Shown here piece after piece: positions 6,701 through 16,801 of a stretch of 64,000 nt of DNA; positions within the stretch are counted from its first letter, which is position 1; every line of letters starts with the position of its first letter. The notes under the pieces are model-generated. The model was not told the DNA's origin. It did no database searches and saw nothing but the letters and a program-made list of their open reading frames with translations. Origin of the DNA: Rubrivivax sp. (GTDB lineage Bacteria > Pseudomonadota > Gammaproteobacteria > Burkholderiales > Burkholderiaceae_C). The position numbers and the translations under genes are program-made. Where the stretch lies: assembly GCA_022843905.1 (NCBI GenBank), contig JALHMT010000009.1:62001-126000 (forward strand), in the 5' to 3' direction.

Positions 6701-7612
6701 ATGGCCGGCCTTCTGGATCGGATCCAGCGCGCGGGCAGGCTGCCCTTCCACGCCATGACGCCGGAGCAGGCGCGCGCTGCCTACGCCGCTGGCGCCGAAG
6801 TGCTGGAGCCGCCACGTGCGCCGTTGGCGCGGGTGCAGGACCTGCAGGTACCCGGCGGCGGGGGTGCGGTGCTCGGGGCGCGGCTGTACGCGCCGACGCA
6901 TTCCGAACTGCCCGTGCTGCTGTACCTGCACGGGGGCGGCTTTGTCATCGGCGGCCTGGAGACTCACGACAGCCTGTGCCGGCAACTCGCCCTGCGCAGC
7001 GGCGCCGCGGTGCTGGCGCTGGACTACCGGCTGGCGCCTGAACATCCCTTTCCGGCAGCGGTGGAAGACGCCTGGTCCGCGATGCGATGGTTGTCCGCCC
7101 AGGCCGCTTCGCTGGGCCTGGACGGTCGACGCCTGGCCGTCGGCGGTGACAGTGCCGGCGGCACGCTGGCGGCGGTCTGCGCGCTGCAGGCGCGTGACGA
7201 AGGCCTGCCGCTGGCCCTGCAACTGCTCATCACCCCCGGCACCGGCGCGCATGCCGACACGGCCTCGCACCGGCTGTTCGCGAACGGCTTCCTGCTGGAC
7301 GCGGCGTCGATCGAGTGGTTCTTCGACCACACCATCGCCTACCACCACCGGCGCGACTGGCGCTTCGCACCGCTGCTGGCGGACGATGTCGACGGCGTCG
7401 CGCCGGCCTGCGTGATCCTGGCCGAATGCGACCCGCTGGTCGACGAAGGCCTGGCCTATGCCGACCGGCTGCGCGCCGCCGGGGTGGCGGTGGAACTCGA
7501 GCTCTATCGAGGGCTCACCCATGACTTCATCAAGATGGGCCGCGTGCTGAAGGAGGCCGCGACGGCCCAGCAGGCCGCGGCCGATGCACTTCGAAAGGCC
7601 TGGTCCCCATGA
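6701..7612 (+). CDS. Alpha/beta hydrolase (HSL-type esterase/lipase)
   Basis: YLHGGGFVIGGLETHD oxyanion motif; VGGDSAGGTLAA nucleophile elbow; start could also be TTG 6674. Confidence 0.9.
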   Translation: MAGLLDRIQRAGRLPFHAMTPEQARAAYAAGAEVLEPPRAPLARVQDLQVPGGGGAVLGARLYAPTHSELPVLLYLHGGGFVIGGLETHDSLCRQLALRSGAAVLALDYRLAPEHPFPAAVEDAWSAMRWLSAQAASLGLDGRRLAVGGDSAGGTLAAVCALQARDEGLPLALQLLITPGTGAHADTASHRLFANGFLLDAASIEWFFDHTIAYHHRRDWRFAPLLADDVDGVAPACVILAECDPLVDEGLAYADRLRAAGVAVELELYRGLTHDFIKMGRVLKEAATAQQAAADALRKAWSP

Positions 7613-8475
7613 AACGCTCCGAGTTCCGCTACCTCGACCGCCTGCGCGTGCGCTGGGCCGAGGTCGACATGCAGAAGATCGTCTTCAACGGTCATTACCT
7701 GATGTACTTCGACACCGCAGTGGCCGGCTATTGGCGCGCCATGGCGATGCCGTACCACGAGACCATGCACCAGCTGTCGGGAGACATCTTCGTCCGCAAG
7801 GCGACGCTGGAGTACCTGGGCTCGGCCCGCTACGACGATGTCTGCGATGTCGGCATCCGCTGCCAGCGTATCGGCACGTCGTCGCTGCTGTTCATCGCCG
7901 CAGTGTTCCGCGGCGAGACCGTGCTGGTTCATGGTGAACTGGTGTATGTCTTCGCCGACCCGGCGTCGCAGACCAGCCGTCCGGTGCCGGCGTCCTTGCG
8001 CCGGGCGATGCTGGGCTTCGAGGCCCGCGAGCCCATGGTCGAGGTCAGCCTGGGTTCCTGGCAGACGCTGGGCGATCGTGCGCAGCCCATCCGCACGGCG
8101 GTGTTCGTCGACGAACAACACATCCCCGCCGACCTGGAGTACGACGCGGCCGATGCCACTGCCTTGCATGCACTGGCCACCAATCGCTTCGGCCTGCCGG
8201 TCGGTACCGGTCGCCTGGTCAACGTGGCGCCGGGAGTCTCGAAGATCGGCCGCATGGCGGTGCGGCAGGACGTGCGCGGCGGCGGCGTCGGAAGGGCCTT
8301 GCTCGAGGCGCTCGTGGACGCGGCCGCACAACGCGGTGACCGCGAGGTGATGCTGCACGCCCAGGCGTCGGCCGTTACTTTTTACCGTCTCGCAGGCTTC
8401 GAGCCCCGGGGACCCTCGTTCGAGGAGGCCGGCATCGAACACCAGGAGATGACTAAGGCGGTGCATTCCTTGTGA
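7609..8475 (+). CDS. Acyl-CoA thioesterase (YbgC/FadM hotdog) fused to GNAT N-acetyltransferase
   Basis: N-terminal VRWAEVDMQKIVFNGHYLMYFDTA hotdog; C-terminal VFVDEQHIP...IGRMAVRQDVRGGGVGRALLEAL GNAT. Confidence 0.88.
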   Translation: MKRSEFRYLDRLRVRWAEVDMQKIVFNGHYLMYFDTAVAGYWRAMAMPYHETMHQLSGDIFVRKATLEYLGSARYDDVCDVGIRCQRIGTSSLLFIAAVFRGETVLVHGELVYVFADPASQTSRPVPASLRRAMLGFEAREPMVEVSLGSWQTLGDRAQPIRTAVFVDEQHIPADLEYDAADATALHALATNRFGLPVGTGRLVNVAPGVSKIGRMAVRQDVRGGGVGRALLEALVDAAAQRGDREVMLHAQASAVTFYRLAGFEPRGPSFEEAGIEHQEMTKAVHSL

Positions 8476-8539
8476 ACGGCTGCCCCGCTCAGGTGCGCAT
8501 TGGGCACCAAGGTACCGCGAGCCCGGGTGCGGCCCGGCC

Positions 8540-8572
8540 AAAAAAATACCCCCCTGCGGCTGCAGGAGGGTA
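8540..8572 (-). terminator. Strong intrinsic terminator (minus strand)
   Basis: Minus strand reads TACCCTCCTGC-AGCC-GCAGGGGGGTA-TTTTTTT; 11 bp with one G-U, tetraloop, T7. Confidence 0.88.
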
Positions 8573-8627
8573 GGTACAAAGGGCCTTGCCCTGCTGAGGA
8601 GATAAGCAGACACCTGTCACGGCGTCG
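8540..8627 (-). ncRNA. Candidate sigma-54-dependent small RNA with anti-SD loop and intrinsic terminator, divergent to tsaD
   Basis: Minus-strand -24/-12 promoter at 8654-8638, predicted TSS about 8627, hairpin CUGCU-UAUCUCCUC-AGCAG (8609-8591), terminator 8572-8540. Confidence 0.6.
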
Positions 8628-8637
8628 AGACAGCTCC

Positions 8638-8654
8638 AGCAAGGCGTGTGCCAA
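8638..8654 (-). promoter_or_regulatory. Sigma-54 (RpoN) -24/-12 promoter
   Basis: Minus strand TTGGCAC-ACGCC-TTGCT matches TTGGCAC-N5-TTGCW at all defined positions. Confidence 0.7.
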
Positions 8655-8680: not shown

Positions 8681-9721
8681 GTGAACATCCTCGGCATCGA
8701 ATCTTCCTGCGACGAGACGGGCGTGGCGCTGGTCAGTGTCGACGGTGCGGCCACGCCGCGCTTGCGTGCGCAGGCACTGCACAGCCAGGCCGACATGCAC
8801 GAAGCCTATGGCGGCGTGGTGCCGGAACTGGCTTCGCGCGACCACATCCGCCGCTTGCTGCCGCTGACCCGGCAGGTGCTCGAAGAAGCGGGTGCGGCGC
8901 TGGACGATCTCGACCTGGTGGCCTACACCCGCGGCCCGGGTCTGGCAGGGGCGCTGCTCGTCGGGGCGGGTGCTGCGGTGGCGCTGGCCGCATCGCTGGG
9001 CAAGCCGGCGCTCGGCGTGCACCACCTCGAAGGGCATCTGCTGTCGCCTTTCCTGGCGCCCGATCCGCCCAGCTTTCCCTTTGTCGCCCTGCTGGTTTCC
9101 GGCGGCCACACGCAATTGATGCGGGTGGACGGCGTCGGCGACTACGAACTGCTGGGCGAAACCATCGACGACGCGGCCGGTGAAGCCTTCGACAAGAGCG
9201 CCAAGCTGCTCGGTCTGGGCTACCCGGGCGGCCCGGCCTTGGCCCGGCTGGCCACCCAGGGAAACCCGGCAGCCTTCGCCCTGCCGCGGCCGCTGCTGCA
9301 CAGCGGTGATCTCGACTTTTCGTTCGCGGGATTGAAGACCGCGGTGATGACGCAGCACCGCAAGCTGGGCCCGACGCCTGCGGAAGCCTCGCGCGCCGAC
9401 CTCGCTGCATCGGCGCAGGCCGCCATCGTCGACGTGCTGGTGGCCAAGTCCATGCGGGCGATGCAACTGACCGGCCTGCGGCGCCTGGTGGTGGCCGGCG
9501 GCGTCGGCGCCAACCTGCGCCTGCGCTCGACGCTCGATGCCGGTGCCAGCAAGCTCGGCGTGCGCGTGCACTACCCGCCGCTGGCGCTGTGCACCGACAA
9601 CGGCGCCATGATCGCACTGGCCGCGGCGATGCGCGTGCAGGCGGGCAGGGCGGTGCCCGACAGCACCGGGGCCTTCGACGTGCGGCCCCGCTGGCCCCTG
9701 CACGAACTCAGCGGACGGTGA
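8681..9721 (+). CDS. tsaD: tRNA N6-adenosine threonylcarbamoyltransferase TsaD
   Basis: (GTG)[16 protein letters not shown]...[25 protein letters not shown]...VSGGHTQLM. Confidence 0.97.
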
Positions 9722-16716: not shown

Positions 16717-16801
16717 GCCGACGTGGTGAAATTGGTAGACACGCTATCTTGAGGGGGTAGTGGCGAAAGCTGTGCGAGTTCGAGTCTCGCCGTCGGCACC
16801 A
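16717..16801 (+). tRNA. tRNA-Leu (anticodon GAG), CCA encoded
   Basis: GCCGACG...CGTCGGC acceptor stem, GAG in CTATCTTGAGGGGGTAG arm, GTTCGAGTC T-loop, discriminator A followed by CCA. Confidence 0.97.

Follow-up and report, generated by a model that had tools for sequence, protein, structure and literature searches.

The minus strand between tsaD and the convergent ORF in the window (the whole 64-kb stretch of Rubrivivax DNA that was analysed) almost certainly encodes a structured RNA that has a sigma-54 promoter and a terminator of its own, as judged by comparison with its homologues. The best overall explanation, to which we assign a probability of roughly 0.7, is that this is a trans-acting small RNA (sRNA) controlled by NtrC and sigma-54, which would occlude ribosome-binding sites. 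The observation of a sigma-54 small RNA in an earlier note on this DNA is confirmed as genuine, and its elements were found where they had been placed (Table 1). The comparisons likewise support the reading of an intergenic sRNA that depends on sigma-54 and exposes an anti-Shine-Dalgarno (anti-SD) segment; both its expression and the anti-SD action are predicted.

Table 1. Coordinates of the RNA unit and the neighbouring genes in the window.
Feature	Positions	Strand	Basis
YbgC-type thioesterase + GNAT ORF, convergent neighbour of the RNA	7609..8475	plus	domain matches
Candidate NtrC-type enhancer, CGCACC-TGAGC-GGGGCA, past the terminator	8481..8497	minus	weak; site class enriched here in homologues
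Small RNA, ~88 nt, predicted start 8627	8540..8627	minus	match to covariance model R1, 74.3 bits
Intrinsic terminator: 11-bp stem 8572-8547, T7 8546-8540	8540..8572	minus	terminator scan and covariation
Helix 2: AGGGC (8592-8588) with GCCCU (8584-8580)	8580..8592	minus	fold and covariation
Unpaired CU-rich core UGCUUAUCUCCUC, complementary to SD-type GAGGAGA	8596..8608	minus	conservation and folds
Helix 1: GACGCC (8626-8621) with GGUGUC (8614-8609), from +2	8609..8626	minus	fold and covariation
Sigma-54 promoter: -24 TTGGCAC, -12 TTGCT	8638..8654	minus	sequence and conservation in homologues
tsaD, divergently oriented, with a GTG start at 8681	8681..9721	plus	TIGR03723, 423 bits, above cut-off

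The promoter sequence TTGGCAC-ACGCC-TTGCT, read from the window at 8654-8638 on the minus strand, is the only match without mismatches within the 64 kb. The predicted start lies 12 nt past the GC of the -12 element and gives 88 nt to the end of the T7 tract, in agreement with the start and length proposed in the earlier note. The 88-nt RNA folds at -38.5 kcal/mol and is more stable than all of its 200 shuffled versions (200/200, z -3.5). The unit occupies the space between the ORF that ends at 8475 and the tsaD start at 8681, and the open reading frames listed over the RNA (for example 7504-8613 and 8382-8654, both minus) are mechanical frames in GC-rich DNA with no signs of being genes. Among the TsaD sequences nearest to that of the window, several come from Rubrivivax MAGs. 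The sole tRNA gene in the window is tRNA-Leu(GAG) at 16717-16801 on the plus strand.

Homologues were sought with a covariance model (R1) built from the RNA part alone, with the promoter excluded. A first DNA search of 61 genomes had given matches in the same genus, each of which showed GGCAC-N5-TTGC followed by a short hairpin at the 5' end, the sequence UCUAUCUCCUCAGCAGGGC, a second hairpin of the GGGC/GCCC type and a terminator. The covariance model search yielded about 75 homologues. Within the genus, R1 matched 44 of 81 genomes at E <= 0.001 (about 38 with at least 50 bits), with one strong copy per matching genome, and about 46% of the genomes gave no match. A second model (R2), built from 69 members, matched 43 of the 401 genomes of the GTDB family and 19 of the 141 sampled genera at E <= 1e-6; a few of these matches are of the RF02278/S17 type discussed below, including two (G268 and G356) of the three that score about 40 bits (G268, G356 and G159). 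No true member was found outside the family among 400 genomes of the order; two order-wide matches (G050 and G638) were rejected after inspection.

Since the model contained no promoter, the sequences upstream of its matches provide an independent test of the sigma-54 assignment. The motif GGCA[C/T]-N6-TGC was found 31-42 nt before the core in 68 of the 69 loci, where 0.09 loci were expected by chance from its rate in the same DNA, although the homologous loci are related and counts over them are not independent. The single exception, L140, carries TGGCACGGAACTTGAT instead. In most loci helix 1 starts one base after the predicted +1. The promoter, the CU-rich core and the terminator are thus conserved together in the relatives, a comparison that the earlier note had proposed as a check.

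The structure is conserved as well. In the alignment of 69 members (68 distinct sequences), 95.6% of the cells pair, and all 20 base pairs of the three helices show at least one double change. Pairing is maintained in 97.6% of the cells in helix 1, 92.6% in helix 2 and 95.8% in the terminator stem, with double changes in 5/5, 4/4 and 11/11 pairs, respectively; the 11-pair stem and T7 tail described previously were also recovered by a terminator scan of the window. Altogether 237 double-changed cells were observed as compared with 61.8 in shuffles, a count that leans upward because the sequences had been aligned by means of the model. We regard this bias as a minor worry, because the signal was destroyed when the pairing partners were slid by one to three columns and because the sequence of helix 1 has been wholly replaced between genera (for example GACACC/GGUGUC, GGCAAG/CUUGUC and GCGAUGGUUG/CAACCAUCGC).

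The segment UCUCCUC is nearly invariant across the homologues and has at least six of its seven bases unpaired in the minimum-energy folds of 61 of 68 homologues. In the window it forms part of the CU-rich stretch UAUCUCCUC at 8604-8596 on the minus strand, which had been drawn as the loop of a hairpin, CUGCU-UAUCUCCUC-AGCAG. The letters of that hairpin are present, but it is missing from the minimum-energy fold, and all five of its pairs can form in only 4 of the 69 sequences (four pairs in 38). The anti-SD segment is exposed, as had been suggested, but between helices 1 and 2 rather than in a hairpin loop. Some distant members are able to form GCUG-UCUCCU-CAGC, and in these the segment may be weakly presented in a loop. 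The conserved design, as predicted from the alignment, is a hairpin (8626-8609), an exposed CU-rich linker, a second hairpin (8592-8580) and the terminator.

The genomic surroundings vary among the homologues. Gene identities were assigned from NCBIfam matches above the cut-off, and nrtD, which encodes a component of a nitrate ABC transporter (TIGR01184) and is usually accompanied by nrtB, was found directly upstream on the same strand in 32 of the 69 loci. In another 32 loci tsaD is upstream and divergent, as in the window, while five have neither gene. On the downstream side, 52 loci have the isc operon gene fdx as the convergent neighbour, 11 have lgt and six have other genes. The window's locus is the only one of the 69 in which a thioesterase-GNAT ORF replaces fdx or lgt. 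Within this single ORF (7609-8475), a thioesterase domain of the YbgC/FadM type precedes a GNAT domain.

Naturally empty sites were also identified. A search with fdx covered 24 genomes of the genus, namely the window's own and others selected for their lack of a strong RNA match, and gave an fdx match in 17. Among the 16 loci fetched from genomes other than the window's, 14 have fdx and tsaD adjacent, with a gap of 0-80 bp and no RNA (L246-L252, L254-L258, L260 and L262), while one (G032) has nrtB-nrtD, a divergent copy of the RNA with GGCACACCGTTTGC and then fdx. With 14 of 16 fdx loci empty and about 46% of the genus without a match, the RNA is dispensable. The mixed neighbours and the empty sites further indicate that both presence and absence are natural and that the RNA does not serve as a leader of tsaD; the claim that the unit is divergent to tsaD is correct for the window, but the RNA is not bound to this gene. 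We also considered the possibility that the element acts in cis on tsaD or is a bare transcription terminator, to which its position immediately before this gene, both here and in 31 other loci, might point. However, both the promoter and the terminator are oriented away from tsaD, the gene is missing on that side in 37 of the 69 loci, and a terminator needs neither a CU-rich core nor two covarying 5' hairpins, which leaves a cis-acting role or a bare terminator very improbable.

The question of which activator serves the sigma-54 promoter was approached through the sequences around the unit. GGTGC/GCACC words peak just past the terminator, with 81 in one 50-bp bin as compared with 20.7 expected, and 21 palindromes of the type TGCACC-N5-GGTGCA (at least 10/12) were seen downstream of the terminator as compared with 0.35 in shuffles; at the same threshold there were three upstream and none in three control windows. 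When the distance between the half-sites GCACC and GGTGC (9/10) was varied from 0 to 15, 31 pairs were found at a distance of 5 as compared with 0-9 at the other distances, a peak that equals the spacing of NtrC sites exactly. Members from no fewer than four genera carry the exact core GCAC-N7-GTGC, and the enrichment is low in loci without the RNA. The candidate site in the window (8497-8481) scores 9/12 overall and 9/10 in the GCACC-N5-GGTGC core, while no clear site was found in the narrow downstream gap of several homologues (e.g., L141, L142, L147 and L148).

We take the motif to be that of NtrC from the enteric consensus. As a positive control we examined, in the window's genome, the operon whose last gene is amtB and which we presume to be glnK-amtB as in other Betaproteobacteria; its upstream region carries TGCACCAAAGTGGTGTA, a second site and a sigma-54 promoter TGGCACGGAAGCTGC. 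With two such sites there, the motif is present at an operon that is classically under NtrC control. An alternative is that the sRNA is driven by another enhancer-binding protein and that the GGTGC palindromes serve a different protein or nothing. The absence or weakness of the sites in some homologues, a mild enrichment of the opposite orientation (GGTGC-N5/6-GCACC) and the unusual placement of enhancers downstream all speak for it, whereas the agreement of the spacing peak and the motif with those at glnK-amtB, the nitrate transporter neighbourhood and the confinement of the enrichment to the sRNA side, with low values in loci without the RNA, speak for NtrC. Some flagellar sigma-54 promoters are known to have their enhancers downstream. 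We consider another activator unlikely, though clearly less so than a cis-acting role, and it is fairly probable that NtrC acts at the sites past the terminator and that the RNA is produced when nitrogen is limiting. The nitrogen link, previously guessed through RpoN, has gained support of its own from the NtrC-type sites and the nrt neighbourhood.

Several sigma-54-dependent sRNAs offer points of comparison. NrsZ of Pseudomonas and other nitrogen-controlled sRNAs depend on NtrC and sigma-54; they resemble the window RNA in their sigma-54 promoter and in the NtrC control that we propose for it from sequence, but NrsZ belongs to another genus and has a different sequence and structure. The Qrr sRNAs of Vibrio are driven by sigma-54 and LuxO, are intergenic with several hairpins and act in trans on target mRNAs. 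They share with the window RNA the intergenic location and multiple hairpins, as well as the sigma-54-driven expression and the action in trans that are predicted for the latter, but have upstream LuxO sites, multiple copies in some species and another sequence. CrcZ and CrcY of Pseudomonas are sigma-54-dependent and much longer, and sequester Crc/Hfq via CA motifs, which the window RNA lacks. Among RNAs with a similar layout, anti-hemB (RF02837) of Burkholderia has a hairpin with a CU stretch and a terminator, yet its score against the window RNA (18.1 bits, E 0.11) is far under the gathering score of 49.5. NcS25 of Burkholderia cenocepacia, described in a paper that mentions sigma-54 and nitrogen, was rejected as a relative because it has no sigma-54 motif and is located at another locus (PMC10117139).

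No Rfam 15 family matched the window RNA at the gathering score, and relaxed thresholds gave no family assignment either. The nearest known RNA is the Betaproteobacteria toxic sRNA S17/bdhR1 (RF02278), which also has a single-stranded UGUCUCCUC stretch and an Hfq-type terminator and is found in the Betaproteobacteria, but which has a sigma-A promoter, RNase E processing and other flanks and structure (PMC11722255). Could the window RNA simply be a member of this family? The shared stretch UGUCUCCUC, a terminator of the same type and the common anti-SD logic would fit, as would the weak cross-matches between the models (15 bits, and 26-41 bits for RF02278 relatives with R2). However, with the RF02278 model the strong homologue L099 reaches 15 bits, far under the 50-bit gathering score, and none of 18 homologue loci attains that score. 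Furthermore, loci of the RF02278 type have promoters of the TATACT/TAGACT type rather than GGCAC-TTGC, and the window's genome has a separate true member with UUGUCUCCUCCACCUCCUCC that scores 67.2 bits. Membership in RF02278 is thus highly implausible. The true RF02278/S17-type RNA of this genome is CU-rich, has a sigma-70-like promoter and is located at G000:C2:5691-5753 (L093). Two more CU-rich, terminator-ended candidates with UUGUCUCCUCC were observed in the same genome (L094 at ~1501-1583, and L095/L096 at ~1499-1585), with scores of 23.1 and 18.7 bits, below the Rfam cut-offs; L095 and L096 are identical in sequence on contigs C35 and C36 and are possibly an assembly duplicate. Several anti-SD-like RNAs may therefore coexist in this genome.

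S17 is also instructive with regard to function. In Bordetella pertussis its CU-rich single-stranded segment pairs with ribosome-binding regions and represses many mRNAs, which makes an anti-SD action through the similar segment of the window RNA plausible (PMC11722255). We think it likely that the UCUCCUC linker, with Hfq bound to the U-tail, pairs with ribosome-binding sites of the GAGGAGA type and lowers the translation of the mRNAs concerned. In the favored scenario, NtrC would bind the enhancer sites just past the terminator, often within the gap to the convergent gene, and the sigma-54 RNA polymerase would transcribe the sRNA of about 88 nt upon nitrogen limitation. The unpaired UCUCCUC, flanked by the two hairpins and assisted by Hfq at the U-tail, would then pair with GAGGAGA-type ribosome-binding sites and thereby reduce the translation of a set of mRNAs. 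In searches of ten genomes for a 12-nt complement of the core, the RNA itself was the only perfect match, so that no target stands out, and pattern searches for complementarity gave no conserved extended target. The pattern GAGGAGATA-N-ATG occurs before scattered genes, including TRAP binding proteins, a porin and, three times, cytochrome oxidase subunit III. The cytochrome c oxidase subunit III gene with a GAGGAGATA ribosome-binding site, present in three genomes of the genus (L214, L218 and L221), is a candidate target.

The RNA apparently belongs to an undescribed sRNA family that is absent from Rfam 15. The open-licence literature contained no description of such an RNA in Rubrivivax, nor of any sigma-54-dependent sRNA for the group, which is weak evidence of novelty. 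The odds are about evenly balanced that the promoter, the RNA and the enhancer past the terminator form a cassette of about 170 bp, placed behind fdx or lgt and beside nrtD or tsaD, that serves as a global arm of nitrogen control by blocking ribosome-binding sites. The NtrC-type sites past the terminator represent a departure from the textbook upstream enhancer, and the naturally empty fdx-tsaD sites offer a ready comparison for the RNA cassette. Tractable phototrophs, Rubrivivax gelatinosus among them, belong to the clade in which the new family falls, and the RNA would link translational control to sigma-54 and probably to the nitrogen status of the cell.
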